Origin: Loxodes magnus
Taxonomy: Eukaryota > Ciliophora > Karyorelictea > Loxodida > Loxodidae
Length of the DNA stretch: 64,000 nucleotides
Direction: 5' to 3'
Assembly: GCA_946699065.1 (NCBI GenBank)
Contig: CAMPDV010000304.1
Location: forward strand, 306,748-370,747
Each line of letters opens with the position of its first letter. Position 1 is the stretch's first letter. The notes beneath the pieces are model-generated. The model had not been told where the DNA came from. It ran no database searches and worked only from the letters and a program-made list of their open reading frames with translations. The translations under genes were made by a program, and so were the position numbers. Below are positions 1 through 64,000 of the stretch, in pieces.

Positions 1-136
1 ATAGTCTCACCGTATAATCTACACTTCCCGATACGATGAACTCTGAATCACTGGATATAGCCACAGATAATACATAATGTGTGTGACCACTCATGGTCTT
101 ACAGGTACCTGTCTTGACGTCCCATAGTCTCACCGT
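1..136 (-). CDS. Open WD40 segment running off the left edge (partial)
   Basis: Downstream (minus strand) of the TAG at 137-139, the WD40 frame stays open to the window edge. It covers one blade and the start of the next, joined through a TAT (Tyr) codon at the site where TAG often occurs. The C-terminal end lies outside the window. Confidence 0.5.
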
Positions 137-748
137 CTAATCTACACTTCCCGATACGATGAACTCTGAATCACTGGATATAGCCACAGATAATACATAA
201 TGTGTGTGACCACTCATGGTCTTACAGGTACCTGTCTTGACGTCCCATAGTCTCACCGTATTATCTCCACTTCCCGATACGATGAACTCTGAATCACTGG
301 ATATAGCCACAGATAATACACAACTAGTGTGACCACTCATGGTCTTACAGGTACCTGTCTTGACGTCCCATAGTCTCACCGTCTTATCTCTACTTCCCGA
401 TACGATGAACTCTGAATCACTGGATATAACCACAGCATATACATAATGTGTGTGACCACTCATGGTCTTACAGGTACCTGTCTTGACGTCCCATAGTCTC
501 ACCGTCTTATCATAACTTCCCGATACGATGAACTCTGAATCACTGGATATAGCCACAGCATATACACAACTAGTGTGACCACTCATGGTCTTACAGGTAC
601 CTGTCTTGACGTCCCATAGTCTCACCGTATTATCATAACTTCCCGATACGATGAACTCTGAATCACTGGATATAGCCACAGCATATACATAACTAGTGTG
701 ACCACTCATGGTCTTACAGGTACCTGTCTTGACGTCCCATAGTCTCAC
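137..748 (-). CDS. Open WD40 segment, 5 blades (203 aa)
   Basis: Five blades with variable pairs, in N to C order, SY, SC, HY, SC, HY; the D-x turns are Y-D-N, Y-D-K, R-D-K, G-D-N and V-D before the TAG. It is bounded by TAG at codon 2 on both sides. The apparent GTG start is the invariant Val of T-V-R-L-W, not a convincing initiator. Five blades do not close a propeller, so this is a piece of a larger frame rather than a gene. Confidence 0.5.
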   Translation of the reverse strand: MRLWDVKTGTCKTMSGHTSYVYAVAISSDSEFIVSGSYDNTVRLWDVKTGTCKTMSGHTSCVYAVAISSDSEFIVSGSYDKTVRLWDVKTGTCKTMSGHTHYVYAVVISSDSEFIVSGSRDKTVRLWDVKTGTCKTMSGHTSCVLSVAISSDSEFIVSGSGDNTVRLWDVKTGTCKTMSGHTHYVLSVAISSDSEFIVSGSVD

Positions 749-751
749 CGT

Positions 752-1363
752 CTAATCTGCACTTCCCGATACTATGAACTCTGAATCACTGGATATAACC
801 ACAGCACATACATAACAAGTGTGACCACTCATGGTCTTACAGGTACCTGTCTTGACGTCCCATAGTCTCACCGTCTTATCTCTACTTCCCGATACGATGA
901 ACTCTGAATCACTGGATATAACCACAGCATATACATAATGTGTGTGACCACTCATGGTCTTACAGGTACCTGTCTTGACGTCCCATAGTCTCACCGTCTT
1001 ATCATAACTTCCCGATACGATGAACTCTGAATCACTGGATATAGCCACAGATAATACATAATGTGTGTGACCACTCATGGTCTTACAGGTACCTGTCTTG
1101 ACGTCCCATAGTCTCACCGTATTATCTCCACTTCCCGATACGATGAACTCTGAATCACTGGATATAGCCACAGATAATACACAACTAGTGTGACCACTCA
1201 TGGTCTTACAGGTACCTGTCTTGACGTCCCATAGTCTCACCGTCTTATCTCTACTTCCCGATACGATGAACTCTGAATCACTGGATATAGCCACAGATAA
1301 TACATAACTAGTGTGACCACTCATGGTCTTACAGGTACCTATCTTGACGTCCCATAGTCTCAC
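752..1363 (-). CDS. Open WD40 segment, 5 blades (203 aa)
   Basis: Blade order is SY/R-D-K, SC/G-D-N, HY/Y-D-K, HY/R-D-K and CY/A-D before TAG. The first blade has K-I-G instead of K-T-G. The last carries the rarer C-Y-V-C-A-V-V version. It lies directly against the 137-748 segment, separated only by one TAG codon. Confidence 0.5.
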   Translation of the reverse strand: MRLWDVKIGTCKTMSGHTSYVLSVAISSDSEFIVSGSRDKTVRLWDVKTGTCKTMSGHTSCVLSVAISSDSEFIVSGSGDNTVRLWDVKTGTCKTMSGHTHYVLSVAISSDSEFIVSGSYDKTVRLWDVKTGTCKTMSGHTHYVYAVVISSDSEFIVSGSRDKTVRLWDVKTGTCKTMSGHTCYVCAVVISSDSEFIVSGSAD

Positions 1364-1489
1364 CGTCTAATCTGCACTTCCCAATACGATGAACTCTGAA
1401 TCACTGGATTTAGCCACAGATAATACACAACTAGTGTGACCACTCATGGTCTTACAGGTACCTATCTTGACGTCCCATAGTCTCACCGT

Positions 1490-2101
1490 CTAATCTGCAC
1501 TTCCCGATACGATGAACTCTGAATCACTGGATATAGCCACAGATAATACACAACTAGTGTGACCACTCATGGTCTTACAGGTACCTATCTTGACGTCCCA
1601 TAGTCTCACCGTATTATCTCCACTTCCCGATACGATGAACTCTGAATCACTGGATATAACCACAGCATATACATAATGTGTGTGACCACTCATGGTCTTA
1701 CAGGTACCTGTCTTGACGTTCCATAGTCTCACCGTATAATCTACACTTCCCGATACGATGAACTCTGAATCACTGGATATAGCCACAGATAATACATAAT
1801 GTGTGTGACCACTCATGGTCTTACAGGTACCTGTCTTGACGTCCCATAGTCTCACCGTCTTATCTCTACTTCCCGATACGATGAACTCTGAATCACTGGA
1901 TATAACCACAGCATATACATAATGTGTGTGACCACTCATGGTCTTACAGGTACCTGTCTTGACGTCCCATAGTCTCACCGTCTTATCATAACTTCCCGAT
2001 ACGATGAACTCTGAATCACTGGATATAGCCACAGCATATACACAACTAGTGTGACCACTCATGGTCTTACAGGTACCTATCTTGACGTCCCATAGTCTCA
2101 C
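1490..2101 (-). CDS. Open WD40 segment, 5 blades (203 aa)
   Basis: Blade order is SC/Y-D-K, HY/R-D-K, HY/V-D-Y, HY/G-D-N and SC/A-D before TAG. The V-D-Y turn shows the same V-D context that precedes TAG in many other units, here with TAT. One blade reads W-N-V-K instead of W-D-V-K. A single TAG unit separates it from the segment ending at 1363. Confidence 0.5.
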   Translation of the reverse strand: MRLWDVKIGTCKTMSGHTSCVYAVAISSDSEFIVSGSYDKTVRLWDVKTGTCKTMSGHTHYVYAVVISSDSEFIVSGSRDKTVRLWDVKTGTCKTMSGHTHYVLSVAISSDSEFIVSGSVDYTVRLWNVKTGTCKTMSGHTHYVYAVVISSDSEFIVSGSGDNTVRLWDVKIGTCKTMSGHTSCVLSVAISSDSEFIVSGSAD

Positions 2102-3457
2102 CGTCTAATCTGCACTTCCCAATACGATGAACTCTGAATCACTGGATTTAGCCACAGATAATACACAACTAGTGTGAACACTCATGGTCTTACAGGTACC
2201 TGTCTTGACGCTCCATAGTCTCACCGTCTTATCATAACTTCCCGATACGATGAACTCTGAATCACTGGATATAGCCACAGATAATACATAATGTGTGTGA
2301 CCACTCATGGTCTTACAGGTACCTATCTTGACGTCCCATAGTCTCACCGTCTAATCTACACTTCCCGATACGATGAACTCGGAATCACTGGATATAGCCA
2401 CAGATAATACATAATGTGTGTGACCACTCATGGTCTTACAGGTACCTGTCTTGACGTCCCATAGTCTCACCGTCTTATCTCTACTTCCCGATACGATGAA
2501 CTCTGAATCACTGGATATAACCAAAGCATATACATAATGTGTGTGACCACTCATGGTCTTACAGGTACCTGTCTTGACGTCCCATAGTCTCACCGTCTTA
2601 TCATAACTTCCCGATACGATGAACTCTGAATCACTGGATATAGCCACAGCATATACACAACTAGTGTGACCACTCATGGTCTTACAGGTACCTATCTTGA
2701 CGTCCCATAGTCTCACCGTCTAATCTGCACTTCCCAATACGATGAACTCTGAATCACTGGATTTAGCCACAGATAATACACAACTAGTGTGAACACTCAT
2801 GGTCTTACAGGTACCTGTCTTGACGCTCCATAGTCTCACCGTATTATCTCCACTTCCCGATACGATGAACTCTGAATCACTGGATATAGCCACAGATAAT
2901 ACATAATGTGTGTGACCACTCATGGTCTTACAGGTACCTATCTTGACGTCCCATAGTCTCACCGTCTAATCTACACTTCCCGATACGATGAACTCGGAAT
3001 CACTGGATATAGCCACAGATAATACACAACTAGTGTGACCACTCATGGTCTTACAGGTACCTGTCTTGACGTCCCATAGTCTCACCGTCTTATCTCTACT
3101 TCCCGATACGATGAACTCTGAATCACTGGATATAGCCACAGATAATACATAATGTGTGTGACCACTCATGGTCTTACAGGTACCTATCTTGACGTCCCAT
3201 AGTCTCACCGTCTAATCTGCACTTCCCAATACGATGAACTCTGAATCACTGGATTTAGCCACAGATAATACACAACTAGTGTGAACACTCATGGTCTTAC
3301 AGGTACCTGTCTTGACGCTCCATAGTCTCACCGTCTTATCATAACTTCCCGATACGATGAACTCTGAATCACTGGATATAGCCACAGATAATACATAATG
3401 TGTGTGACCACTCATGGTCTTACAGGTACCTATCTTGACGTCCCATAGTCTCACCGT
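2102..3457 (-). repeat. Array region of short open WD40 segments (2-3 blades)
   Basis: Five segments of 80-121 residues lie end to end (2105-2347, 2351-2716, 2720-2962, 2966-3208, 3212-3454), each closed by codon-2 TAG. Local marks are S-V-H-T for S-G-H-T, W-S-V-K for W-D-V-K and A-K-S-S-D for A-I-S-S-D. 2105-2347 and 3212-3454 translate identically and lie 1107 bp (9 units) apart, which indicates block duplication. Confidence 0.8.
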
Positions 3458-3946
3458 CTAATCTACACTTCCCGATACGATGAACTCGGAATCACTGGAT
3501 ATAGCCACAGATAATACACAACTAGTGTGACCACTCATGGTCTTACAGGTACCTGTCTTGACGTCCCATAGTCTCACCGTATTATCTAAACTTCCCGATA
3601 CGATGAACTCTGAATCACTGGATATAGCCACAGATAATACATAATGTGTGTGACCACTCATGGTCTTACAGGTACCTGTCTTGACGTTCCATAGTCTCAC
3701 CGTCTTATCATAACTTCCCGATACGATGAACTCTGAATCACTGGATATAGCCACAGATAATACACAACTAGTGTGACCACTCATGGTCTTACAGGTACCT
3801 GTCTTGACGTCCCATAGTCTCACCGTCTTATCTCTACTTCCCGATACGATGAACTCTGAATCACTGGATATAGCCACAGCATATACACAACTAGTGTGAA
3901 CACTCATGGTCTTACAGGTACCTGTCTTGACGTTCCATAGTCTCAC
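3458..3946 (-). CDS. Open WD40 segment, 4 blades (162 aa)
   Basis: Blade order is SC/R-D-K, SC/Y-D-K, HY/L-D-N and SC/V-D before TAG. The first blade has the S-V-H-T variant, which loses the Gly of the G-H dipeptide. It is flanked on both sides by single TAG codons with no spacer. Confidence 0.48.
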   Translation of the reverse strand: MRLWNVKTGTCKTMSVHTSCVYAVAISSDSEFIVSGSRDKTVRLWDVKTGTCKTMSGHTSCVLSVAISSDSEFIVSGSYDKTVRLWNVKTGTCKTMSGHTHYVLSVAISSDSEFIVSGSLDNTVRLWDVKTGTCKTMSGHTSCVLSVAISSDSEFIVSGSVD

Positions 3947-3949
3947 CGT

Positions 3950-4438
3950 CTAATCTACACTTCCCGATACGATGAACTCTGAATCACTGGATATAGCCAC
4001 AGCATATACATAATGTGTATGACCACTCATGGTCTTACAGGTACCTGTCTTGACGCTCCATAGTCTCACCGTATTATCTCCACTTCCCGATACGATGAAC
4101 TCTGAATCACTGGATATAGCCACAGATAATACACAACTAGTGTGACCACTCATGGTCTTACAGGTACCTGTCTTGACGTCCCATAGTCTCACCGTCTTAT
4201 CTCTACTTCCCGATACGATGAACTCTGAATCACTGGATATAGCCACAGATAATACACAACTAGTGTGACCACTCATGGTCTTACAGGTACCTGTCTTGAC
4301 GTCCCATAGTCTCACCGTATTATCATAACTTCCCGATACGATGAACTCTGAATCACTGGATATAGCCACAGATAATACATAATGTGTGTGACCACTCATG
4401 GTCTTACAGGTACCTGTCTTGACGTCCCATAGTCTCAC
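3950..4438 (-). CDS. Open WD40 segment, 4 blades (162 aa)
   Basis: Blade order is HY/Y-D-N, SC/R-D-K, SC/G-D-N and HY/V-D before TAG. One blade has W-S-V-K in place of W-D-V-K. Identity to sequence 1353 bp to the right begins near 4320. Confidence 0.48.
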   Translation of the reverse strand: MRLWDVKTGTCKTMSGHTHYVLSVAISSDSEFIVSGSYDNTVRLWDVKTGTCKTMSGHTSCVLSVAISSDSEFIVSGSRDKTVRLWDVKTGTCKTMSGHTSCVLSVAISSDSEFIVSGSGDNTVRLWSVKTGTCKTMSGHTHYVYAVAISSDSEFIVSGSVD

Positions 4439-6558
4439 CGTCTAATCTACACTTCCCGATACGATGAACTCTGAATCACTGGATATAGCCACAGATAATA
4501 CACAACTAGTGTGACCACTCATGGTCTTACAGGTACCTGTCTTGACGTCCCATAGTCTCACCGTTTTATCATTACTTCCCAATACGATGAACTCTGAATC
4601 ACTGGATATAGCCACAGATAATACACAACTAGTGTGACCACTCATGGTCTTACAGGTACCTGTCTTGACGTCCCATAGTCTGACCGTCTAATCTACACTT
4701 CCCGATACGATGAACTCTGAATCACTGGATATAGCCACAGCATATACACAACTAGTGTGACCACTCATGGTCTTACAGGTACCTATCTTGACGTCCCATA
4801 GTCTCACCGTCTAATCTGCACTTCCCAATACGATGAACTCTGAATCACTGGATTTAGCCACAGATAATACACAACTAGTGTGAACACTCATGGTCTTACA
4901 GGTACCTGTCTTGACGCTCCATAGTCTCACCGTATTATCTCCACTTCCCGATACGATGAACTCTGAATCACTGGATATAGCCACAGATAATACACAACTA
5001 GTGTGACCACTCATGGTCTTACAGGTACCTGTCTTGACGTCCCATAGTCTCACCGTCTAATCTACACTTCCCGATACGATGAACTCTGAATCACTGGATA
5101 TAGCCACAGATAATACATAATGTGTGTGACCACTCATGGTCTTACAGGTACCTGTCTTGACGTCCCATAGTCTCACCGTCTAATCTGCACTTCCCGATAC
5201 GATGAACTCGGAATCACTGGATATAACCACAGCACATACATAACAAGTGTGACCACTCATGGTCTTACAGGTACCTGTCTTGACGTTCCATAGTCTCACC
5301 GTCTAATCTACACTTCCCGATACGATGAACTCTGAATCACTGGATATAGCCACAGCACATACATAACAAGTGTGACCACTCATGGTCTTACAGGTACCTG
5401 TCTTGACGTCCCATAGTCTCACCGTATTATCATAACTTCCCGATACGATGAACTCTGAATCACTGGATATAGCCACAGATAATACATAACTAGTGTGACC
5501 ACTCATGGTCTTACAGGTACCTGTCTTGACGTCCCATAGTCTCACCGTCTAATCTGCACTTCCCGATACGATGAACTCGGAATCACTGGATATAGCCACA
5601 GATAATACACAACTAGTGTGACCACTCATGGTCTTACAGGTACCTGTCTTGACGTCCCATAGTCTCACCGTATTATCATAACTTCCCGATACGATGAACT
5701 CTGAATCACTGGATATAGCCACAGATAATACATAATGTGTGTGACCACTCATGGTCTTACAGGTACCTGTCTTGACGTTCCATAGTCTCACCGTCTAATC
5801 TACACTTCCCGATACGATGAACTCTGAATCACTGGATATAGCCACAGATAATACACAACTAGTGTGACCACTCATGGTCTTACAGGTACCTGTCTTGACG
5901 TCCCATAGTCTCACCGTTTTATCATTACTTCCCAATACGATGAACTCTGAATCACTGGATATAGCCACAGATAATACACAACTAGTGTGACCACTCATGG
6001 TCTTACAGGTACCTGTCTTGACGTCCCATAGTCTCACCGTCTAATCTACACTTCCCGATACGATGAACTCTGAATCACTGGATATAGCCACAGCATATAC
6101 ACAACTAGTGTGACCACTCATGGTCTTACAGGTACCTATCTTGACGTCCCATAGTCTCACCGTCTAATCTGCACTTCCCAATACGATGAACTCTGAATCA
6201 CTGGATTTAGCCACAGATAATACACAACTAGTGTGAACACTCATGGTCTTACAGGTACCTGTCTTGACGCTCCATAGTCTCACCGTATTATCTCCACTTC
6301 CCGATACGATGAACTCTGAATCACTGGATATAGCCACAGATAATACACAACTAGTGTGACCACTCATGGTCTTACAGGTACCTGTCTTGACGTCCCATAG
6401 TCTCACCGTCTAATCTACACTTCCCGATACGATGAACTCTGAATCACTGGATATAGCCACAGATAATACATAATGTGTGTGACCACTCATGGTCTTACAG
6501 GTACCTGTCTTGACGTCCCATAGTCTCACCGTCTAATCTGCACTTCCCGATACGATGA
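4320..6558 (-). repeat. Partial 1353-bp (11-unit) block duplication
   Basis: Sequence at about 4320-5205 recurs at about 5673-6558 with a constant 1353-bp offset. Shared rare variants support common descent: a Leu-Gly-Ser-Asn-Asp-Lys blade, the W-S-V-K/S-V-H-T pair and an A-K-S-S-D blade (4811-5053 and 6164-6406 translate identically). The region otherwise holds 2-blade open segments separated by codon-2 TAGs. Boundaries were judged by eye. Confidence 0.7.
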
Positions 6559-7393
6559 ACTCTGAATCACTGGATATAACCACAGCATATACACAATGTG
6601 TGTGACCACTCATGGTCTTACAGGTACCTGTCTTGACGTCCCATAGTCTCACCGTATAATCTCTACTTCCCGATACGATGAACTCTGAATCACTGGATAT
6701 AACCACAGATAATACATAACTAGTGTGACCACTCATGGTCTTACAGGTACCTGTCTTGACGTCCCATAGTCTCACCGTCTAATCTACACTTCCCGATACG
6801 ATGAACTCTGAATCACTGGATATAGCCACAGATAATACATAACTAGTGTGACCACTCATGGTCTTACAGGTACCTGTCTTGACGTCCCATAGTCTCACCG
6901 TCTAATCTACACTTCCCGATACGATGAACTCTGAATCACTGGATATAGCCACAGATAATACATAATGTGTGTGACCACTCATGGTCTTACAGGTACCTGT
7001 CTTGACGTCCCATAGTCTCACCGTATTATCTCCACTTCCCGATACGATGAACTCTGAATCACTGGATATAGCCACAGCACATACATAACAAGTGTGACCA
7101 CTCATGGTCTTACAGGTACCTGTCTTGACGTCCCATAGTCTCACCGTATTATCTCCACTTCCCGATACGATGAACTCTGAATCACTGGATATAGCCACAG
7201 ATAATACATAACTAGTGTGACCACTCATGGTCTTACAGGTACCTGTCTTGACGTCCCATAGTCTCACCGTCTAATCTACACTTCCCGATACGATGAACTC
7301 TGAATCACTGGATATAGCCACAGATAATACATAATGTGTGTGACCACTCATGGTCTTACAGGTACCTGTCTTGACGTTCCATAGTCTCACCGT
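6533..7393 (-). repeat. Array region with 2- and 3-blade open segments
   Basis: Open segments are 6533-6775 (80 aa, with the rarer H-C-V-Y-A-V-V blade) and 6902-7267 (121 aa, with a C-Y-V-C-A-V blade). Lone TAG-containing units separate them and follow them. Nothing else is seen. Confidence 0.75.
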
Positions 7394-8374
7394 CTAATCT
7401 ACACTTCCCGATACGATGAACTCTGAATCACTGGATATAGCCACAGATAATACACAACTAGTGTGACCACTCATGGTCTTACAGGTACCTGTCTTGACGT
7501 CCCATAGTCTCACCGTATAATCTACACTTCCCAATACGATGAACTCTGAATCACTGGATATAGCCACAGATAATACACAACTAGTGTGACCACTCATGGT
7601 CTTACAGGTACCTGTCTTGACGTCCCATAGTCTTACCGTATAATCTACACTTCCCGATACGATGAACTCTGAATCACTGGATATAGCCACAGATAATACA
7701 TAATGTGTGTGACCACTCATGGTCTTACAGGTACCTGTCTTGACGTCCCATAGTCTCACCGTATTATCTCCACTTCCCGATACGATGAACTCTGAATCAC
7801 TGGATATAGCCACAGATAATACACAACTAGTGTGACCACTCATGGTCTTACAGGTACCTGTCTTGACGTCCCATAGTCTCACCGTATAATCTACACTTCC
7901 CAATACGATGAACTCTGAATCACTGGATATAGCCACAGATAATACATAATGTGTGTGACCACTCATGGTCTTACAGGTACCTGTCTTGACGTCCCATAGT
8001 CTCACCGTATTATCTCCACTTCCCGATACGATGAACTCTGAATCACTGGATATAGCCACAGATAATACACAACTAGTGTGACCACTCATGGTCTTACAGG
8101 TACCTGTCTTGACGTCCCATAGTCTCACCGTATTATCATAACTTCCCGATACGATGAACTCTGAATCACTGGATATAGCCACAGATAATACACAACTAGT
8201 GTGACCACTCATGGTCTTACAGGTACCTGTCTTGACGTCCCATAGTCTCACCGTATTATCATAACTTCCCGATACGATGAACTCTGAATCACTGGATATA
8301 GCCACAGCATATACATAATGTGTGTGACCACTCATGGTCTTACAGGTACCTGTCTTGACGTCCCATAGTCTCAC
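7394..8374 (-). CDS. Open WD40 segment, 8 blades (326 aa)
   Basis: Eight blades fit one propeller in number, the second-longest TAG-free stretch up to this point. Blade order is HY/Y-D-N, SC/Y-D-N, SC/G-D-N, HY/V-D-Y, SC/G-D-N, HY/V-D-Y, SC/V-D-Y, SC/V-D before TAG. Several V-D turns are followed by TAT here where other regions have TAG. Its first six blades match the beginning of the 8378-9727 segment, at an offset of 1353 bp. Confidence 0.55.
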   Translation of the reverse strand: MRLWDVKTGTCKTMSGHTHYVYAVAISSDSEFIVSGSYDNTVRLWDVKTGTCKTMSGHTSCVLSVAISSDSEFIVSGSYDNTVRLWDVKTGTCKTMSGHTSCVLSVAISSDSEFIVSGSGDNTVRLWDVKTGTCKTMSGHTHYVLSVAISSDSEFIVLGSVDYTVRLWDVKTGTCKTMSGHTSCVLSVAISSDSEFIVSGSGDNTVRLWDVKTGTCKTMSGHTHYVLSVAISSDSEFIVSGSVDYTVRLWDVKTGTCKTMSGHTSCVLSVAISSDSEFIVLGSVDYTVRLWDVKTGTCKTMSGHTSCVLSVAISSDSEFIVSGSVD

Positions 8375-10093
8375 CGTCTAATCTACACTTCCCGATACTA
8401 TGAACTCTGAATCACTGGATATAGCCACAGATAATACATAATGTGTGTGACCACTCATGGTCTTACAGGTACCTGTCTTGACGTCCCATAGTCTCACCGT
8501 ATTATCTCCACTTCCCGATACGATGAACTCTGAATCACTGGATATAGCCACAGATAATACACAACTAGTGTGACCACTCATGGTCTTACAGGTACCTGTC
8601 TTGACGTCCCATAGTCTCACCGTCTTATCTCTACTTCCCGATACGATGAACTCTGAATCACTGGATATAGCCACAGATAATACATAATGTGTGTGACCAC
8701 TCATGGTCTTACAGGTACCTGTCTTGACGTCCCATAGTCTCACCGTATAATCTACACTTCCCGATACGATGAACTCTGAATCACTGGATATAGCCACAGA
8801 TAATACATAATGTGTGTGACCACTCATGGTCTTACAGGTACCTGTCTTGACGTCCCATAGTCTCACCGTATTATCTCCACTTCCCGATACGATGAACTCT
8901 GAATCACTGGATATAGCCACAGATAATACACAACTAGTGTGACCACTCATGGTCTTACAGGTACCTGTCTTGACGTCCCATAGTCTTACCGTATAATCTA
9001 CACTTCCCGATACGATGAACTCTGAATCACTGGATATAGCCACAGATAATACATAATGTGTGTGACCACTCATGGTCTTACAGGTACCTGTCTTGACGTC
9101 CCATAGTCTCACCGTATTATCTCCACTTCCCGATACGATGAACTCTGAATCACTGGATATAGCCACAGATAATACACAACTAGTGTGACCACTCATGGTC
9201 TTACAGGTACCTGTCTTGACGTCCCATAGTCTCACCGTATAATCTACACTTCCCAATACGATGAACTCTGAATCACTGGATATAGCCACAGATAATACAT
9301 AATGTGTGTGACCACTCATGGTCTTACAGGTACCTGTCTTGACGTCCCATAGTCTCACCGTATTATCTCCACTTCCCGATACGATGAACTCTGAATCACT
9401 GGATATAGCCACAGATAATACACAACTAGTGTGACCACTCATGGTCTTACAGGTACCTGTCTTGACGTCCCATAGTCTCACCGTATTATCATAACTTCCC
9501 GATACGATGAACTCTGAATCACTGGATATAGCCACAGATAATACACAACTAGTGTGACCACTCATGGTCTTACAGGTACCTGTCTTGACGTCCCATAGTC
9601 TCACCGTATTATCATAACTTCCCGATACGATGAACTCTGAATCACTGGATATAGCCACAGCATATACATAATGTGTGTGACCACTCATGGTCTTACAGGT
9701 ACCTGTCTTGACGTCCCATAGTCTCACCGTCTAATCTACACTTCCCGATACTATGAACTCTGAATCACTGGATATAGCCACAGATAATACATAATGTGTG
9801 TGACCACTCATGGTCTTACAGGTACCTGTCTTGACGTCCCATAGTCTCACCGTATTATCTCCACTTCCCGATACGATGAACTCTGAATCACTGGATATAG
9901 CCACAGATAATACACAACTAGTGTGACCACTCATGGTCTTACAGGTACCTGTCTTGACGTCCCATAGTCTCACCGTCTTATCTCTACTTCCCGATACGAT
10001 GAACTCTGAATCACTGGATATAGCCACAGATAATACATAATGTGTGTGACCACTCATGGTCTTACAGGTACCTGTCTTGACGTCCCATAGTCT
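7550..10093 (-). repeat. 1353-bp (11-unit) tandem block duplication
   Basis: About 7550-8740 recurs at about 8903-10093 with an offset of 1353 bp. Rare shared marks confirm it: a silent change giving tagtcttacc (near 7629 and 8982) and an ATC to ATA change giving gatactatg (near 8395 and 9748). The block crosses the TAG codons separating open segments, so the stops were copied with it. Confidence 0.78.
8378..9727 (-). CDS. Longest open WD40 segment, 11 blades (449 aa)
   Basis: This is the longest stop-free stretch under the standard code. It has eleven blades with turns Y-D-N, Y-D-N, G-D-N, V-D-Y, G-D-N, V-D-Y, G-D-N, V-D-Y, R-D-K, G-D-N and V-D before TAG. A 2-blade alternation of SC/G-D-N and HY/V-D-Y runs through its middle. 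The start is again only the Val codon after the previous TAG, so true initiation here is doubtful. It has no signal peptide, membrane segment or other domain. Confidence 0.55.
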   Translation of the reverse strand: MRLWDVKTGTCKTMSGHTHYVYAVAISSDSEFIVSGSYDNTVRLWDVKTGTCKTMSGHTSCVLSVAISSDSEFIVSGSYDNTVRLWDVKTGTCKTMSGHTSCVLSVAISSDSEFIVSGSGDNTVRLWDVKTGTCKTMSGHTHYVLSVAISSDSEFIVLGSVDYTVRLWDVKTGTCKTMSGHTSCVLSVAISSDSEFIVSGSGDNTVRLWDVKTGTCKTMSGHTHYVLSVAISSDSEFIVSGSVDYTVRLWDVKTGTCKTMSGHTSCVLSVAISSDSEFIVSGSGDNTVRLWDVKTGTCKTMSGHTHYVLSVAISSDSEFIVSGSVDYTVRLWDVKTGTCKTMSGHTHYVLSVAISSDSEFIVSGSRDKTVRLWDVKTGTCKTMSGHTSCVLSVAISSDSEFIVSGSGDNTVRLWDVKTGTCKTMSGHTHYVLSVAISSDSEFIVSGSVD

Positions 10094-10342
10094 CACCGTA
10101 TTATCATAACTTCCCGATACGATGAACTCTGAATCACTGGATATAGCCACAGCATATACATAATGTGTGTGACCACTCATGGTCTTACAGGTACCTGTCT
10201 TGACGTCCCATAGTCTCACCGTATAATCATAACTTCCCGATACGATGAACTCTGAATCACTGGATATAACCACAGATAATACACAACTAGTGTGACCACT
10301 CATGGTCTTACAGGTACCTGTCTTGACGTCCCATAGTCTCAC
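9731..10342 (-). CDS. Open WD40 segment, 5 blades (203 aa)
   Basis: Blade order is SC/Y-D-Y, HY/Y-D-N, HY/R-D-K, SC/G-D-N and HY/V-D before TAG. Its last three blades are the same as the C-terminal end of the 8378-9727 segment, as expected from the 11-unit duplication. They recur again at 10469-10834. Confidence 0.5.
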   Translation of the reverse strand: MRLWDVKTGTCKTMSGHTSCVLSVVISSDSEFIVSGSYDYTVRLWDVKTGTCKTMSGHTHYVYAVAISSDSEFIVSGSYDNTVRLWDVKTGTCKTMSGHTHYVLSVAISSDSEFIVSGSRDKTVRLWDVKTGTCKTMSGHTSCVLSVAISSDSEFIVSGSGDNTVRLWDVKTGTCKTMSGHTHYVLSVAISSDSEFIVSGSVD

Positions 10343-48290: not shown

Positions 48291-48293
48291 AGA

Positions 48294-52306: not shown

Positions 52307-52795
52307 CTAATCTACACTTCCCGATACGATGAACTCTGAATCACTGGATATAGCCACAGATAATACATAATGTGTGTGACCACTCATGGTCTTACAGGTA
52401 CCTGTCTTGACGTCCCATAGTCTCACCGTCTTATCTCTACTTCCCGATACGATGAACTCTGAATCACTGGATATAACCACAGCATATAAATAATGTGTAT
52501 GACCACTCATGGTCTTACAGGTACCTGTCTTGACGTCCCATAGTCTCACCGTATAATCTCTACTTCCCGATACGATGAACTCTGAATCACTGGATATAGC
52601 CACAGATAATACACAACTAGTGTGACCACTCATGGTCTTACAGGTACCTGTCTTGACATCCCATAGTCTCACCGTCTTATCATAACTACCCGATACTATG
52701 AACTCTGAATCACTGGATATAACCACAGATAATACACAACTAGTGTGACCACTCATGGTCTTACAGGTACCTGTCTTGACGTCCCATAGTTTCAC
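52307..52795 (-). CDS. Open WD40 segment, 4 blades (162 aa)
   Basis: Blade order is SC/Y-D-K, SC/R-D-Y, HY/R-D-K with H-Y-L-Y and HY/V-D before TAG. The V-K-L-W variant precedes it. The H-Y-L-Y blade recurs at 54152-54640. Confidence 0.48.
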   Translation of the reverse strand: MKLWDVKTGTCKTMSGHTSCVLSVVISSDSEFIVSGSYDKTVRLWDVKTGTCKTMSGHTSCVLSVAISSDSEFIVSGSRDYTVRLWDVKTGTCKTMSGHTHYLYAVVISSDSEFIVSGSRDKTVRLWDVKTGTCKTMSGHTHYVLSVAISSDSEFIVSGSVD

Positions 52796-54151
52796 CGTCT
52801 AATCTACACTTCCCGATACGATGAACTCTGAATCACTGGATATAACCACAGCATATACATAATGTGTGTGACCACTCATGGTCTTACAGGTACCTGTCTT
52901 GACGTTCCATAGTCTCACCGTCTAATCTACACTTCCCGATACGATGAACTCTGAATCACTGGATATAGCCTCAGATAATACATAATGTGTGTGACCACTC
53001 ATGGTCTTACAGGTACCTGTCTTGACGTCCCATAGTCTCACCGTCTAATCTACACTTCCCGATACGATGAACTCTGAATCACTGGATATAGCCACAGATA
53101 ATACATAATGTGTGTGACCACTCATGGTCTTACAGGTACCTGTCTTGACGTCCCATAGTCTCACCGTCTTATCTCTACTTCCCGATACGATGAACTCTGA
53201 ATCACTGGATATAGCCACAGATAATACATAATGTGTGTGACCACTCATGGTCTTACAGGTACCTGTCTTGACGTCCCATAGTCTCACCGTCTAATCTGCA
53301 CTTCCCAATACGATGAACTCTGAATCACTGGATATAGCCACAGATAATACACAACTAGTGTGACCACTCATGGTCTTACAGGTACCTGTCTTGACATCCC
53401 ATAGTCTCACCGTCTTATCATAACTACCCGATACTATGAACTCTGAATCACTGGATATAACCACAGATAATACACAACTAGTGTGACCACTCATGGTCTT
53501 ACAGGTACCTGTCTTGACGTCCCATAGTCTCACCGTCTAATCATAACTGCCCGATACGATGAACTCTGAATCACTGGATATAGCCACAGCATATACATAA
53601 TGTGTGTGACCACTCATGGTCTTACAGGTACCTGTCTTGACGTCCCATAGTCTCACCGTATAATCTCTACTTCCCGATACGATGAACTCTGAATCACTGG
53701 ATATAACCACAGCATATACATAATGTGTGTGACCACTCATGGTCTTACAGGTACCTGTCTTGACGTTCCATAGTCTCACCGTTTTATCATTACTTCCCGA
53801 TACGATGAACTCTGAATCACTGGATATAGCCACAGATAATACATAATGTGTGTGACCACTCATGGTCTTACAGGTACCTGTCTTGACGTCCCATAGTCTC
53901 ACCGTCTAATCTACACTTCCCGATACGATGAACTCTGAATCACTGGATATAGCCACAGATAATACATAATGTGTGTGACCACTCATGGTCTTACAGGTAC
54001 CTGTCTTGACGTCCCATAGTCTCACCGTCTAATCTACACTTCCCGATACGATGAACTCTGAATCACTGGATATAGCCACAGCATATACACAACTAGTGTG
54101 ACCACTCATGGTCTTACAGGTACCTGTCTTGACGTCCCATAGTCTCACCGT
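52796..54151 (-). repeat. Array region of 2- and 3-blade segments
   Basis: Open segments are 53045-53287, 53291-53533 and 53537-53902, with two-unit TAG gaps at 52796-53044 and 53903-54151. Confidence 0.78.
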
Positions 54152-54640
54152 CTAATCTGCACTTCCCAATACGATGAACTCTGAATCACTGGATTTAGCC
54201 ACAGATAATACACAACTAGTGTGACCACTCATGGTCTTACAGGTACCTGTCTTGACGTTCCATAGTCTCACCGTCTTATCATAACTACCCGATACTATGA
54301 ACTCTGAATCACTGGATATAGCCACAGCATATACATAATGTGTGTGACCACTCATGGTCTTACAGGTACCTGTCTTGACGTCCCATAGTCTCACCGTATA
54401 ATCTCTACTTCCCGATACGATGAACTCTGAATCACTGGATATAGCCACAGATAATACATAATGTGTGTGACCACTCATGGTCTTACAGGTACCTGTCTTG
54501 ACGTCCCATAGTCTCACCGTCTTATCTCTACTTCCCGATACGATGAACTCTGAATCACTGGATATAACCACAGCATATAAATAATGTGTATGACCACTCA
54601 TGGTCTTACAGGTACCTGTCTTGACGTCCCATAGTCTCAC
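54152..54640 (-). CDS. Open WD40 segment, 4 blades (162 aa)
   Basis: Blade order is HY/R-D-K with H-Y-L-Y, HY/R-D-Y, HY/Y-D-K and SC/A-D with A-K-S-S-D before TAG. The A-K-S-S-D change (ATA to AAA) is otherwise found only in the first 6.5 kb, linking distant parts of the array. Confidence 0.48.
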   Translation of the reverse strand: MRLWDVKTGTCKTMSGHTHYLYAVVISSDSEFIVSGSRDKTVRLWDVKTGTCKTMSGHTHYVLSVAISSDSEFIVSGSRDYTVRLWDVKTGTCKTMSGHTHYVYAVAISSDSEFIVSGSYDKTVRLWNVKTGTCKTMSGHTSCVLSVAKSSDSEFIVLGSAD

Positions 54641-55381
54641 CGTCTAATCATAACTGCCCGATACGATGAACTCTGAATCACTGGATATAGCCACAGCATA
54701 TACATAATGTGTGTGACCACTCATGGTCTTACAGGTACCTGTCTTGACGTCCCATAGTCTCACCGTATAATCTCTACTTCCCGATACGATGAACTCTGAA
54801 TCACTGGATATAACCACAGCATATACATAATGTGTGTGACCACTCATGGTCTTACAGGTACCTGTCTTGACGTTCCATAGTCTCACCGTCTAATCTACAC
54901 TTCCCGATACGATGAACTCTGAATCACTGGATATAGCCTCAGATAATACATAATGTGTGTGACCACTCATGGTCTTACAGGTACCTGTCTTGACGTCCCA
55001 TAGTCTCACCGTTTTATCATTACTTCCCAATACGATGAACTCTGAATCACTGGATATTGCAACAGCATATACACAACTAGTGTGACCACTCATGGTCTTA
55101 CAGGTACCTGTCTTGACGTCCCATAGTCTCACCGTCTAATCTACACTTCCCGATACGATGAACTCTGAATCACTGGATATAGCCTCAGATAATACATAAT
55201 GTGTGTGACCACTCATGGTCTTACAGGTACCTGTCTTGACGTCCCATAGTCTCACCGTCTAATCTGCACTTCCCAATACGATGAACTCTGAATCACTGGA
55301 TATAGCCACAGATAATACACAACTAGTGTGACCACTCATGGTCTTACAGGTACCTGTCTTGACGTCCCATAGTCTCACCGT
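54641..55381 (-). repeat. Array region with two 2-blade segments and a TAG pair
   Basis: Open segments are 54644-54886 and 54890-55132; 55133-55381 is two TAG units. The segment 54890-55132 recurs at 58211-58453 and, with an extra W-N-V-K, at 60056-60298. Confidence 0.75.
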
Positions 55382-55870
55382 CTAATCTACACTTCCCGAT
55401 ACGATGAACTCTGAATCACTGGATATAGCCACAGCATATACAGAACTAGTGTGACCACTCATGGTCTTACAGGTACCTGTCTTGACGTTCCATAGTCTCA
55501 CCGTTTTATCATTACTTCCCAATACGATGAACTCTGAATCACTGGATATAGCCACAGATAATACACAACTAGTGTGACCACTCATGGTCTTACAGGTACC
55601 TGTCTTGACATCCCATAGTCTCACCGTCTTATCTGCACTTCCCAATACGATGAACTCTGAATCACTGGATATAGCCACAGATAATACACAACTAGTGTGA
55701 CCACTCATGGTCTTACAGGTACCTGTCTTGACGTTCCATAGTCTCACCGTTTTATCATTACTTCCCAATACGATGAACTCTGAATCACTGGATATAGCCA
55801 CAGATAATACACAACTAGTGTGACCACTCATGGTCTTACAGGTACCTGTCTTGACGTCCCATAGTCTCAC
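55382..55870 (-). CDS. Open WD40 segment, 4 blades (162 aa)
   Basis: Blade order is SC/N-D-K, SC/A-D-K, SC/N-D-K and SS/V-D before TAG; three of the four are Leu-Gly-Ser type. A-D-K shows that the A-D context can carry Lys at codon 2 as well as TAG. Confidence 0.48.
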   Translation of the reverse strand: MRLWDVKTGTCKTMSGHTSCVLSVAISSDSEFIVLGSNDKTVRLWNVKTGTCKTMSGHTSCVLSVAISSDSEFIVLGSADKTVRLWDVKTGTCKTMSGHTSCVLSVAISSDSEFIVLGSNDKTVRLWNVKTGTCKTMSGHTSSVYAVAISSDSEFIVSGSVD

Positions 55871-58800
55871 CGTCTAATCTGCACTTCCCAATACGATGAA
55901 CTCTGAATCACTGGATATAGCCACAGATAATACACAACTAGTGTGACCACTCATGGTCTTACAGGTACCTGTCTTGACGTCCCATAGTCTCACCGTCTAA
56001 TCTACACTTCCCGATACGATGAACTCTGAATCACTGGATACAGCCACAGATAATACACAACTAGTGTGACCACTCATGGTCTTACAGGTACCTGTCTTGA
56101 CGTCCCATAGTCTCACCGTCTAATCTACACTTCCCGATACGATGAACTCTGAATCACTGGATATAGCCACAGATAATACATAATGTGTGTGACCACTCAT
56201 GGTCTTACAGGTACCTATCTTGACGTCCCATAGTCTCACCGTCTTATCTGCACTTCCCAATACGATGAACTCTGAATCACTGGATATAGCCACAGATAAT
56301 ACACAACTAGTGTGACCACTCATGGTCTTACAGGTACCTGTCTTGACGTTCCATAGTCTCACCGTCTAATCATAACTGCCCGATACGATGAACTCTGAAT
56401 CACTGGATATAGCCACAGCATATACACAACTAGTGTGACCACTCATGGTCTTACAGGTACCTGTCTTGACGTCCCATAGTCTCACCGTCTAATCTGCACT
56501 TCCCAATACGATGAACTCTGAATCACTGGATATAGCCACAGATAATACACAACTAGTGTGACCACTCATGGTCTTACAGGTACCTATCTTGACGTCCCAT
56601 AGTCTCACCGTCTAATCTGCACTTCCCAATACGATGAACTCTGAATCACTGGATATAGCCACAGATAATACACAACTAGTGTGACCACTCATGGTCTTAC
56701 AGGTACCTGTCTTGACGTTCCATAGTCTCACCGTATAATCTACACTTCCCGATACGATGAACTCTGAATCACTGGATATAGCCACAGCATATACATAATG
56801 TGTGTGACCACTCATGGTCTTACAGGTACCTGTCTTGACGTCCCATAGTCTCACCGTCTAATCTACACTTCCCGATACGATGAACTCTGAATCACTGGAT
56901 ATAGCCACAGATAATACACAACTAGTGTGACCACTCATGGTCTTACAGGTACCTGTCTTGACGTCCCATAGTCTCACCGTCTAATCTGCACTTCCCAATA
57001 CGATGAACTCTGAATCACTGGATATAGCCTCAGATAATACATAATGTGTGTGACCACTCATGGTCTTACAGGTACCTGTCTTGACGTCCCATAGTCTCAC
57101 CGTTTTATCATAACTGCCCGATACGATGAACTCTGAATCACTGGATATAGCCACAGCATATACACAACTAGTGTGACCACTCATGGTCTTACAGGTACCT
57201 GTCTTGACGTCCCATAGTCTCACCGTCTAATCTGCACTTCCCAATACGATGAACTCTGAATCACTGGATATAGCCACAGATAATACACAACTAGTGTGAC
57301 CACTCATGGTCTTACAGGTACCTATCTTGACGTCCCATAGTCTCACCGTCTAATCTGCACTTCCCAATACGATGAACTCTGAATCACTGGATATAGCCAC
57401 AGATAATACACAACTAGTGTGACCACTCATGGTCTTACAGGTACCTGTCTTGACGTTCCATAGTCTCACCGTATAATCTACACTTCCCGATACGATGAAC
57501 TCTGAATCACTGGATATAGCCACAGCATATACATAATGTGTGTGACCACTCATGGTCTTACAGGTACCTGTCTTGACGTCCCATAGTCTCACCGTCTAAT
57601 CTACACTTCCCGATACGATGAACTCTGAATCACTGGATATAGCCACAGATAATACACAACTAGTGTGACCACTCATGGTCTTACAGGTACCTGTCTTGAC
57701 GTCCCATAGTCTCACCGTCTAATCTACACTTCCCGATACGATGAACTCTGAATCACTGGATATAGCCACAGATAATACATAATGTGTGTGACCACTCATG
57801 GTCTTACAGGTACCTGTCTTGACGTCCCATAGTCTCACCGTATAATCTCTACTTCCCGATACGATGAACTCTGAATCACTGGATATAACCACAGCATATA
57901 CATAATGTGTATGACGACTCATGGTCTTACAGGTACCTGTCTTGACGTCCCATAGTCTCACCGTCTAATCATAACTGCCCGATACGATGAACTCTGAATC
58001 ACTGGATATAGCCACAGATAATACATAATGTGTGTGACCACTCATGGTCTTACAGGTACCTGTCTTGACGTCCCATAGTCTCACCGTATAATCTCTACTT
58101 CCCGATACGATGAACTCTGAATCACTGGATATAACCACAGCATATACATAATGTGTGTGACCACTCATGGTCTTACAGGTACCTGTCTTGACGTTCCATA
58201 GTCTCACCGTCTAATCTACACTTCCCGATACGATGAACTCTGAATCACTGGATATAGCCTCAGATAATACATAATGTGTGTGACCACTCATGGTCTTACA
58301 GGTACCTGTCTTGACGTCCCATAGTCTCACCGTTTTATCATTACTTCCCAATACGATGAACTCTGAATCACTGGATATTGCCACAGCATATACACAACTA
58401 GTGTGACCACTCATGGTCTTACAGGTACCTGTCTTGACGTCCCATAGTCTCACCGTCTAATCTACACTTCCCGATACGATGAACTCTGAATCACTGGATA
58501 TAGCCACAGATAATACATAATGTGTGTGACCACTCATGGTCTTACAGGTACCTGTCTTGACGTCCCATAGTCTCACCGTCTAATCTGCACTTCCCAATAC
58601 GATGAACTCTGAATCACTGGATATAGCCACAGATAATACACAACTAGTGTGACCACTCATGGTCTTACAGGTACCTGTCTTGACGTCCCATAGTCTCACC
58701 GTCTAATCTACACTTCCCGATACGATGAACTCTGAATCACTGGATATAGCCACAGATAATACATAATGTGTGTGACCACTCATGGTCTTACAGGTACCTA

Positions 58801-58945
58801 TCTTGACGTCCCATAGTCTCACCGTCTTATCTGCACTTCCCAATACGATGAACTCTGAATCACTGGATATAGCCACAGATAATACACAACTAGTGTGACC
58901 ACTCATGGTCTTACAGGTACCTGTCTTGACGTTCCATAGTCTCAC
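55871..58945 (-). repeat. Array region of 2-blade segments; dispersed module copies
   Basis: Open segments are 56120-56362, 56612-56854, 56981-57223, 57350-57592, 57719-57961, 57965-58207, 58211-58453 and 58703-58945, all 80 aa. 56612-56854 and 57350-57592 are the same. 56120-56362 and 58703-58945 are the same module (A-D-K then K-I-G/HY) seen twice more to the right. 57719 has S-R-H-T for S-G-H-T. Confidence 0.8.
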
Positions 58946-60055
58946 CGTCTAATCATAACTGCCCGATACGATGAACTCTGAATCACTGGATATAGCCACA
59001 GCATATACACAACTAGTGTGACCACTCATGGTCTTACAGGTACCTGTCTTGACGTCCCATAGTCTCACCGTCTAATCTGCACTTCCCAATACGATGAACT
59101 CTGAATCACTGGATATAGCCACAGATAATACATAATGTGTGTGACCACTCATGGTCTTACAGGTACCTGTCTTGACGTCCCATAGTCTCACCGTCTAATC
59201 TACACTTCCCGATACGATGAACTCTGAATCACTGGATATAGCCACAGATAATACACAACTAGTGTGACCACTCATGGTCTTACAGGTACCTGTCTTGACG
59301 TCCCATAGTCTCACCGTCTAATCTGCACTTCCCAATACGATGAACTCTGAATCACTGGATATAGCCACAGATAATACACAACTAGTGTGACCACTCATGG
59401 TCTTACAGGTACCTATCTTGACGTCCCATAGTCTCACCGTCTAATCTGCACTTCCCAATACGATGAACTCTGAATCACTGGATATAGCCACAGATAATAC
59501 ACAACTAGTGTGACCACTCATGGTCTTACAGGTAACTGTCTTGACGTCCCATAGTCTCACCGTCTAATCTACACTTCCCGATACGATGAACTCTGAATCA
59601 CTGGATATAGCCACAGCATATACATAACTAGTGTGACCACTCATGGTCTTACAGGTACCTGTCTTGACGTCCCATAGTCTCACCGTCTAATCTACACTTC
59701 CCGATACGATGAACTCTGAATCACTGGATATAGCCACAGCATATACATAATGTGTGTGACCACTCATGGTCTTACAGGTACCTGTCTTGACGTCCCATAG
59801 TCTCACCGTCTAATCTGCACTTCCCAATACGATGAACTCTGAATCACTGGATATAGCCACAGATAATACACAACTAGTGTGACCACTCATGGTCTTACAG
59901 GTAACTGTCTTGACGTCCCATAGTCTCACCGTCTAATCTACACTTCCCGATACGATGAACTCTGAATCACTGGATATAACCACAGCATATACATAATGTG
60001 TGTGACCACTCATGGTCTTACAGGTACCTGTCTTGACGTCCCATAGTCTCACCGT
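58946..60055 (-). repeat. Nine consecutive TAG-containing units
   Basis: Every unit has codon-2 TAG, so no segment longer than one blade is open under the standard code. All scaffold codons are intact and the phase is constant. Confidence 0.85.
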
Positions 60056-60916
60056 CTAATCTACACTTCCCGATACGATGAACTCTGAATCACTGGATAT
60101 AGCCTCAGATAATACATAATGTGTGTGACCACTCATGGTCTTACAGGTACCTGTCTTGACGTCCCATAGTCTCACCGTTTTATCATTACTTCCCAATACG
60201 ATGAACTCTGAATCACTGGATATTGCCACAGCATATACACAACTAGTGTGACCACTCATGGTCTTACAGGTACCTGTCTTGACGTTCCATAGTCTCACCG
60301 TCTAATCTACACTTCCCGATACGATGAACTCTGAATCACTGGATATAGCCACAGCATATACATAACTAGTGTGACCACTCATGGTCTTACAGGTACCTGT
60401 CTTGACGTCCCATAGTCTCACCGTCTAATCTACACTTCCCGATACGATGAACTCTGAATCACTGGATATAGCCACAGCATATACATAATGTGTGTGACCA
60501 CTCATGGTCTTACAGGTACCTGTCTTGACGTCCCATAGTCTCACCGTCTAATCTACACTTCCCGATACGATGAACTCTGAATCACTGGATATAGCCACAG
60601 CATATACATAATGTGTGTGACCACTCATGGTCTTACAGGTACCTGTCTTGACGTCCCATAGTCTCACCGTCTAATCTACACTTCCCGATACGATGAACTC
60701 TGAATCACTGGATATAGCCACAGATAATACATAATGTGTGTGACCACTCATGGTCTTACAGGTACCTGTCTTGACGTCCCATAGTCTCACCGTCTAATCT
60801 GCACTTCCCAATACGATGAACTCTGAATCACTGGATATAGCCACAGATAATACACAACTAGTGTGACCACTCATGGTCTTACAGGTACCTGTCTTGACAT
60901 CCCATAGTCTCACCGT
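60056..60916 (-). repeat. One 2-blade segment and five TAG units
   Basis: 60056-60298 (80 aa) has the N-D-K Leu-Gly-Ser blade and Leu-Ser-Glu. 60299-60916 is five TAG units with nothing else in them. Confidence 0.78.
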
Positions 60917-63900
60917 CTAATCTACACTTCCCGATACGATGAACTCTGAATCACTGGATATAGCCACAGATAATACATAATGTGTGTGACCACTCATGGT
61001 CTTACAGGTACCTATCTTGACGTCCCATAGTCTCACCGTCTTATCTGCACTTCCCAATACGATGAACTCTGAATCACTGGATATAGCCACAGATAATACA
61101 CAACTAGTGTGACCACTCATGGTCTTACAGGTACCTGTCTTGACGTTCCATAGTCTCACCGTCTAATCATAACTGCCCGATACGATGAACTCTGAATCAC
61201 TGGATATAGCCACAGCATATACACAACTAGTGTGACCACTCATGGTCTTACAGGTACCTGTCTTGACGTCCCATAGTCTCACCGTCTAATCTGCACTTCC
61301 CAATACGATGAACTCTGAATCACTGGATATAGCCACAGATAATACACAACTAGTGTGACCACTCATGGTCTTACAGGTACCTGTCTTGACGTTCCATAGT
61401 CTCACCGTCTTATCATAACTACCCGATACTATGAACTCTGAATCACTGGATATAGCCACAGCATATACATAATGTGTGTGACCACTCATGGTCTTACAGG
61501 TACCTGTCTTGACGTCCCATAGTTTCACCGTCTAATCTACACTTCCCGATACGATGAACTCTGAATCACTGGATATAGCCACAGATAATACACAACTAGT
61601 GTGACCACTCATGGTCTTACAGGTAACTGTCTTGACGTCCCATAGTCTCACCGTCTAATCTACACTTCCCGATACGATGAACTCTGAATCACTGGATATA
61701 GCCTCAGATAATACATAATGTGTGTGAACACTCATGGTCTTACAGGTACCTGTCTTGACGTCCCATAGTCTCACCGTCTAATCTACACTTCCCGATACGA
61801 TGAACTCTGAATCACTGGATATAGCCTCAGATAATACATAATGTGTGTGAACACTCATGGTCTTACAGGTACCTGTCTTGACGTCCCATAGTCTCACCGT
61901 ATAATCATAACTACCCGATACTATGAACTCTGAATCACTGGATATAGCCACAGATAATACACAACTAGTGTGACCACTCATGGTCTTACAGGTACCTGTC
62001 TTGACGTCCCATAGTCTCACCGTCTAATCTACACTTCCCGATACGATGAACTCTGAATCACTGGATATAGCCACAGATAATACATAATGTGTGTGACCAC
62101 TCATGGTCTTACAGGTACCTGTCTTGACGTCCCATAGTCTCACCGTATAATCATAACTACCCGATACTATGAACTCTGAATCACTGGATATAGCCACAGA
62201 TAATACACAACTAGTGTGACCACTCATGGTCTTACAGGTACCTGTCTTGACGTCCCATAGTCTCACCGTCTAATCTACACTTCCCGATACGATGAACTCT
62301 GAATCACTGGATATAGCCACAGATAATACATAATGTGTGTGACCACTCATGGTCTTACAGGTACCTGTCTTGACGTCCCATAGTCTCACCGTCTAATCTA
62401 CACTTCCCGATACGATGAACTCTGAATCACTGGATATAACCACAGCATATACATAATGTGTGTGACCACTCATGGTCTTACAGGTACCTGTCTTGACGTC
62501 CCATAGTCTCACCGTCTAATCTGCACTTCCCAATACGATGAACTCTGAATCACTGGATATAGCCACAGATAATACACAACTAGTGTGACCACTCATGGTC
62601 TTACAGGTACCTGTCTTGACATCCCATAGTCTCACCGTCTAATCTACACTTCCCGATACGATGAACTCTGAATCACTGGATATAGCCACAGATAATACAT
62701 AATGTGTGTGACCACTCATGGTCTTACAGGTACCTATCTTGACGTCCCATAGTCTCACCGTCTTATCTGCACTTCCCAATACGATGAACTCTGAATCACT
62801 GGATATAGCCACAGATAATACACAACTAGTGTGACCACTCATGGTCTTACAGGTACCTGTCTTGACGTTCCATAGTCTCACCGTCTAATCATAACTGCCC
62901 GATACGATGAACTCTGAATCACTGGATATAGCCACAGCATATACACAACTAGTGTGACCACTCATGGTCTTACAGGTACCTGTCTTGACGTCCCATAGTC
63001 TCACCGTCTAATCTGCACTTCCCAATACGATGAACTCTGAATCACTGGATATAGCCACAGATAATACACAACTAGTGTGACCACTCATGGTCTTACAGGT
63101 ACCTGTCTTGACGTTCCATAGTCTCACCGTCTTATCATAACTACCCGATACTATGAACTCTGAATCACTGGATATAGCCACAGCATATACATAATGTGTG
63201 TGACCACTCATGGTCTTACAGGTACCTGTCTTGACGTCCCATAGTTTCACCGTCTAATCTACACTTCCCGATACGATGAACTCTGAATCACTGGATATAG
63301 CCACAGATAATACACAACTAGTGTGACCACTCATGGTCTTACAGGTAACTGTCTTGACGTCCCATAGTCTCACCGTCTAATCTACACTTCCCGATACGAT
63401 GAACTCTGAATCACTGGATATAGCCTCAGATAATACATAATGTGTGTGAACACTCATGGTCTTACAGGTACCTGTCTTGACGTCCCATAGTCTCACCGTC
63501 TAATCTACACTTCCCGATACGATGAACTCTGAATCACTGGATATAGCCTCAGATAATACATAATGTGTGTGAACACTCATGGTCTTACAGGTACCTGTCT
63601 TGACGTCCCATAGTCTCACCGTATAATCATAACTACCCGATACTATGAACTCTGAATCACTGGATATAGCCACAGATAATACACAACTAGTGTGACCACT
63701 CATGGTCTTACAGGTACCTGTCTTGACGTCCCATAGTCTCACCGTCTAATCTACACTTCCCGATACGATGAACTCTGAATCACTGGATATAGCCACAGAT
63801 AATACATAATGTGTGTGACCACTCATGGTCTTACAGGTACCTGTCTTGACGTCCCATAGTCTCACCGTATAATCATAACTACCCGATACTATGAACTCTG

Positions 63901-64000
63901 AATCACTGGATATAGCCACAGATAATACACAACTAGTGTGACCACTCATGGTCTTACAGGTACCTGTCTTGACGTCCCATAGTCTCACCGTCTAATCTAC
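60780..64000 (-). repeat. 1722-bp (14-unit) tandem duplication running off the right edge
   Basis: Copies are about 60780-62501 and 62502 to the window end. Four open segments are duplicated in order: 60917, 61286, 61778 and 62024 match 62639, 63008, 63500 and 63746, all at +1722. Shared marks are gacatccc near 60895 and 62617, the V-K-L-W variant near 61523 and 63245, and an AGT-TAC change (ggtaactgtc) near 61621 and 63343. The right copy lacks any clear difference from the left by eye, so this is among the youngest events here. Confidence 0.85.

Follow-up and report, generated by a model that had tools for sequence, protein, structure and literature searches.

When a reading frame stays open for thousands of codons, on the condition that TAG is read as an amino acid, is it a giant gene or a satellite that has kept its frame? 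The question is posed by the last 64,000 bases of contig CAMPDV010000304.1 (C304, 370,747 bp) of the ciliate Loxodes magnus, a stretch (positions 306,748 to 370,747; hereafter the window) that consists throughout of tandem copies of a 123-bp unit reading as one WD40 blade. With a probability of roughly 0.86, we read it as a karyorelict satellite in a genome that uses the code of NCBI table 27, with its unit derived from the hypervariable blades of a pentapeptide-WD40 gene family and its arrays now drifting. The reassignment is the published code and not new; what is new is the satellite of WD40 blades, which is very large, together with the hypervariable gene family from which it stems.

The repeat unit and its open frames

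Tandem Repeats Finder (TRF) resolved the window into a single head-to-tail array of 520.2 copies. The units were read on the minus strand and set to begin at TGG, with 41 codons per unit, and 510 of the 519 unit spacings measure 123 bp, the other nine 125 bp. Translated with TAG as glutamine, the unit is a WD40 repeat, which carries the GH and WD landmarks, matches Pfam WD40 (PF00400 and others) with an E-value of 1.2e-130 over 500 residues, and finds the PDB sequence 2ymu with an E-value of 2.6e-179. Structure prediction of eight window units, with glutamine at both TAG codons, gave five models with mean predicted local distance difference test scores (pLDDT) from 43.1 to 93.7, the best of which is an all-strand fold of about four strands per unit. 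The predicted fold indicates that the sequence reads as WD40, which is a statement on the sequence and not on whether the protein is made.

In the standard code, the longest open stretch on the minus strand of the window is 450 codons. If TAG is sense, two long frames are open (Table 1), as the first-pass annotation of this DNA had proposed, although the second begins at 49346 rather than at about 49426. In between, TGA codons interrupt the frame and nine 125-bp units, all identical, shift it. No strong higher-order period was detected in the window, where the autocorrelation of TAG is at most 0.12 in size; a 369-bp periodicity is present in both other array contigs sampled.

Table 1. Features of the window, in window coordinates
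Feature	Position	Strand	Basis
WD40 array, 123-bp unit of 41 codons	1..64000	-	TRF, unit count, Pfam
Open frame of 7894 codons with TAG as sense	2..23683	-	Open reading frame listing with TAG = Q and table 6
Open frame of 4884 codons with TAG as sense	49346..64000	-	Open reading frame listing with TAG = Q and table 6
275 TAG codons at unit codon 37, full units	137..63748 (first to last)	-	Gln by table 27
Span with nine 125-bp units, identical +2 insertion, frame shifted	39731..49465	-	
125-bp units, first five	39731-39855, 45022-45146, 47115-47239, 47240-47364, 47611-47735	-	
125-bp units, last four	48720-48844, 48845-48969, 49216-49340, 49341-49465	-	
Ten other in-frame stop-like codons, full units	23684..48296 (span)	-	

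TAG at codon 37

Among the 510 full units, codon 37 (codon 2 in the numbering of the first-pass annotation) is TAG in 275, TAT in 83, AAG in 76, AAT in 45 and AAA in 31, and the nine 125-bp units also hold the site, out of register. A hand count of about 270 in 520 units, with the same four alternatives, is thereby borne out. The computer count likewise reproduces exactly the reported absence of in-frame TAA (0/510) and the three TAG codons elsewhere (codon 1 once, codon 28 twice), and it adds seven TGA codons that had gone unmentioned (codon 19 six times, codon 33 once), which brings the stop-like codons outside codon 37 to ten. A TAG share of about one half holds for the window as a whole; it is not a constant, ranging from 0.35 to 0.75 between tenths of the window, and from 1/29 to 8/9 units between 11 other array segments. 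Within a fixed 30-base context, TAG occurs at codon 37 a total of 97,234 times in the genome, and CAG, which specifies the same amino acid, 475 times; the same context in the window gives TAG 244, TAT 74, AAG 62, AAT 40, AAA 24, and neither CAG nor TAA.

The genetic code of the genome

Conserved genes of the same genome demonstrate how TAG is read. All 31 histone matches carry internal TAA or TAG, and three carry TGA. Twelve histone loci were cut out, eight of which align as H3; the other four (L040, L043, L044 and L051), in which neither H3 nor H4 aligned well and which may be other histones, were dropped before counting. Against human H3, all 10 TAG codons of the eight cores and 12 of their 16 TAA codons lie at glutamine sites, and the codons found at human glutamine sites are CAA 16, TAA 12, TAG 10, CAG 3 and others 7. 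The first stop-like codon past the expected H3 end is TGA in six genes, two of which (L041 and L042) end in RGERT-TGA, and TAA in the other two (L045 and L048). Two kinds of H3 are seen, a canonical one with the RGERT end (L041, L042) and a variant with an altered tail that ends in RGEK plus a few residues (L045-L050).

The release factor eRF1 is itself written in this code. In-frame TAA or TAG occurs in 3/3 eRF1_2 matches, and the two eRF1 genes on contig C196 (L037 near 54994 and L038 near 20094) contain both codons in frame and end in DFL-TGA. Sites were placed by the eRF1 motifs TASNIKS, as in other eukaryotes, and YxCxxxF. Both copies have RA-TAA-NIKS in place of TASNIKS, so that eRF1 itself needs TAA to be read as glutamine, and FFLCENTF stands at the position of YxCxxxF. 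As for TGA, each of the eight pentapeptide-WD40 genes read (described below) has it at one blade's conserved WD tryptophan, and three gene units have it at codon 19, where the aligned 2ymu often has tryptophan. Together, H3, eRF1 and the WD tryptophan lead to TAG as glutamine and to UGA as both tryptophan and stop. TAG is thus almost certainly sense here, read as glutamine, and the stop reassignment suspected from the window is confirmed by conserved genes; the standard code is ruled out by TAG and TAA at glutamine sites of these genes, eRF1 and histones included.

Three observations weigh against this reading of the code. Four of the 16 TAA codons in the H3 cores lie at non-glutamine sites; the H3 gene L048 has TAA and no TGA within 25 codons past its expected end; and a glutamine tRNA with a CUA anticodon was not found in several genome searches that lacked a working positive control. 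Two of these searches gave no hits, one of them with no controls either. Another scored 63 tRNA matches from 42,786 candidates; Lys TTT is present in each of the 20 loci cut out, in eight of them together with Ala TGC, and a separate locus (L021) holds Glu CTC. An Rfam search of five loci gave no match. Some tRNA matches are themselves tandem, with spacings of about 1753, 527 and 1752 bp at C78:681122-688206, C103:669738-672972 and C158:171420-182004, and the tandem loci cut out, that of C78 included, are tRNA-Lys(TTT).

The report on the macronuclear (MAC) assembly of Loxodes magnus (706 Mbp, with 231 Mbp of tandem repeats) assigns it NCBI table 27, with UGA as the sole stop that can also be tryptophan (PMC11441545), and the code given for the karyorelict Parduczia is UAA = Q, UAG = Q and UGA = W (PMC4967479). 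The genes read here agree with this karyorelict code, and no tested feature differs. It is hardly conceivable, then, that TAG is a true stop in a dead satellite under the standard code, having arisen once from AAG or TAT and spread by homogenisation. TAG is indeed one base away from both AAG and TAT, and it occurs at codon 37 in all 12 array segments read; but the TAG and TAA codons at glutamine sites refute a stop for this genome, and the same units also have TAG (codon 17) and TGA (codon 19), in genes as in arrays.

Codon 37 belongs to a hypervariable set

Variants were counted over 971 full units from 12 segments of four contigs, taking only 123-bp units and dropping one unit. Codons 35, 37, 17 and 19 rank first to fourth of 41 in amino-acid diversity. 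The stop-like codons outside codon 37 follow the same pattern: 107 lie at the other five hypervariable codons and 18 at the 35 ordinary ones, the former including TAG at codon 17 (37 times, none in the window), TGA at codon 19 (56 times) and TAA or TGA at codon 35 (14 times). Nothing thus sets codon 37 apart as a stop site, and glutamine, written TAG, would be one common allele there.

The pattern resembles that of the HNWD genes (het-d, het-e, het-r) of the fungus Podospora anserina, whose WD40 repeats are likewise nearly identical apart from a few hypervariable codons. Adding 10 to the codons under positive selection in these repeats (7, 9, 25 and 27; PMC2873952) gives codons 17, 19, 35 and 37 of the present unit. 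For the seven-site HNWD list of PMC12222747, the best of 41 offsets puts five of the seven sites within the top seven codons, and the next best three. The match is imperfect: site 39 of HNWD corresponds to codon 3, which hardly varies, and site 10 to codon 15, which ranks 15th, while the sixth rank goes to codon 20, where HNWD has no site. The GH and WD landmarks of HNWD, aligned to the unit, give the same offset. By this analogy, the hypervariable codons 16, 17, 19, 35 and 37 of the genes would sit at positions that form the ligand face in the fungal receptors.

A probable parent family of pentapeptide-WD40 genes

Of the four isolated unit places first listed, two lie inside genes (L001 and L007) of one layout: a Gln-rich N-terminal part, pentapeptide repeats (Pfam E-value of 7.4e-11 in L001), one divergent blade, four satellite-type blades and two divergent blades. 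Their satellite-type blades equal the array consensus at 89 to 117 of 123 bases. With the 380-residue N-terminal part of L007 as the query, 108 places were scored from 2,238 first-look candidates. One of them is L007, which counts as only 92% identical to itself, so that stop-like codons seem to be scored as differences; the other 107 are 47-78% identical and nearly all full length, with tens of TAA or TAG codons and at most one TGA each. Identical scores recur among the 108 places, several of which may be alleles or duplicated contigs, a point against the preferred reading. Six further genes, picked across the identity range, all have the same seven-blade layout with four satellite-type blades (8/8 in total); seven of the eight genes read belong to the 108 places, from which L001 is absent.

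Compared with HNWD, these genes carry pentapeptide repeats, have a 41-codon unit and keep four variable units in 8/8 cases; the gene places are many more, and a huge satellite accompanies them. NACHT and HET are not among the Pfam families for L001 (18/18) or for L007 (best 25 of 36), in frames that run past the locus start and leave the first part of the gene unread.

The blades differ sharply in their divergence between genes. Among 28 gene pairs, the preceding blade has a silent difference of 0.44 and the following blades one of 0.35, compared to 0.059 for ordinary codons in the first three blades of satellite type; the value is lower in the internal blades in 28/28 pairs, and the boundary can be seen along the gene. 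At the hypervariable codons, the silent difference is 0.20 and the nonsynonymous difference 0.42. The internal gene blades differ silently from array units by 0.034 and from one another by 0.046. On these sequence comparisons, the simplest reading is that the internal blades evolve in concert between genes, presumably by gene conversion, while diversity is kept at a few codons; the likeness to HNWD suggests that the family may have a role in recognition.

The same numbers bear on the idea that the arrays act as a reservoir of blade variants and donate hypervariable blades to the genes by gene conversion. The internal blades are as near to array units as to one another while the flanking blades are at 0.35-0.44, and the reduction is found in every pair, as a reservoir would have it; yet conversion from gene to gene without the arrays, or a recent amplification from the genes, yields the same numbers, which carry no direction and come from eight genes, seven of them among the 108 scored places. 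We regard a reservoir as an unlikely, though not negligible, alternative. Under the preferred reading of a satellite derived from the genes, the 123-bp unit would be a single WD40 blade that originated as a copy of internal blades in this large family of the same genome. These blades would have been amplified into arrays by unequal exchange or a similar process, and their diversity carried along and reshuffled between units.

The arrays vary as an unconstrained satellite

Outside the six hypervariable codons, 59 of 241 possible nonsynonymous changes are seen, compared to 23 of 74 possible synonymous ones (Fisher p = 0.29), and the mean ratio of nonsynonymous to synonymous polymorphism (pN/pS) over random pairs of units, with codon 20 also set aside, is 0.88 at ordinary codons. 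Of 1008 unit spacings, 34 depart from 123 bp, nine of them in the window, and none of the 34 by a multiple of three, although some off-length spacings in L034 could be assembly errors. No length change keeps the frame, and the variants at ordinary codons look neutral, so that inheritance is the simplest account of the open frame. The expectation of the first-pass annotation that so clean a frame would be surprising in a dead satellite is not supported for this array. The frame would last without selection, since indels are rare relative to copying.

These results also bear on whether the array is one or more functional giant genes, with TAG as glutamine, that specify WD40 proteins of thousands of residues. 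The two long frames and the good WD40 reading, with a mean pLDDT of 93.7 for eight units in the best of five models, are what such genes would show. Against them stand the array found in every segment of C304 sampled over 370 kb, the off-length spacings, the neutral variation of ordinary codons, and the eight family genes read, which keep four such units each. A giant coding gene was dropped as the main reading on the spacing changes and the neutral variation, and we consider it very unlikely. Long head-to-tail arrays on several contigs and near-neutral variation within the sampled arrays are instead the properties of a satellite. Judged by its sequence, the array is best described as an unconstrained and recently homogenised satellite, in which the long open frame does not support coding and which is probably not translated.

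Extent and genomic setting of the satellite

The assembly of 705,730,643 bp and 7,843 contigs holds 356,843 exact occurrences of one 29-mer from the unit, or 43.9 Mb at 123 bp each, with gene copies making up a small part of them. The 29-mer is kept in 395 of 520 window copies and in 36/81 to 69/82 units of the other C304 samples, so the corrected total may be near 58 Mb, or about 8% of the assembly, a rough value given that this share varies. Four further 10-kb segments of C304 are array in the same orientation. When one 2-kb stretch was taken from each of 20 random contigs (half of 40 drawn), two stretches lay inside the array, and several of the 20 contigs showed strong tandem periodicity.

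Other tandem or near-tandem repeats were seen at L025, L026, L028, L029, L030 and L031, with best periods from 43 bp (14% GC) to 890 bp. Six frames taken from sampled DNA, drawn from five random contigs and from a stretch of C476, were compared with Pfam, and none of the six gave a family. On contig C4 the array starts near 2,225,700 and is also present at 2,255,001-2,258,000 and at 2,271,655-2,274,654, the contig end. To its left lie, by eye, a kinase-like frame and then a degenerate WD40 stretch with frame changes (L052 and L008; C4:2221500-2227257), possibly a kinase-WD40 gene or its remnant. At L004 (C2:246730-249758) and L006 (C3:1482893-1485921), fragments of about one to three units, cut in mid-unit, are embedded in AT-rich DNA. 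Units bearing CAG cluster at C124:3977-106102, which holds 64 of the first 100 places listed, and the matches on C124 switch strand between 10,521 and 12,966.

The present array should belong to the low-complexity tandem repeats reported for Loxodes magnus (231 Mbp in the MAC) in PMC11441545, the main text of which, supplements aside, has no occurrence of WD40 or satellite. Literature searches for Loxodes with WD40 and for WD40 satellites found nothing on such a satellite or its hypervariable pattern.

Discussion

Satellites and macrosatellites derived from protein-coding sequence, such as D4Z4, consist of tandem units that hold a gene-derived reading frame. The satellite of Loxodes magnus differs in that its unit is a single domain blade, present in hundreds of thousands of copies, with its diversity at the hypervariable codons of the gene. 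UAA and UAG are read as glutamine and UGA as tryptophan or stop, and in the mechanism that we propose, the arrays, once amplified from the genes, would now drift. An open frame of thousands of codons should not be taken as a sign of coding where an array has been homogenised recently.

By analogy with the silent cassettes of antigenic variation, one might picture the satellite as an archive of a pentapeptide-WD40 receptor family, from which array-to-gene conversion renews the recognition face; we hold this to be improbable, and a shade more so than the bare donation of blades considered above. Altogether, about 44 Mb by exact 29-mer count are a satellite of a single WD40 blade from a hypervariable family, with the diversity of that family still visible. 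This makes it a direct case in which to study the passage of a gene repeat into satellite DNA, and to ask whether variation can return from a satellite to genes.

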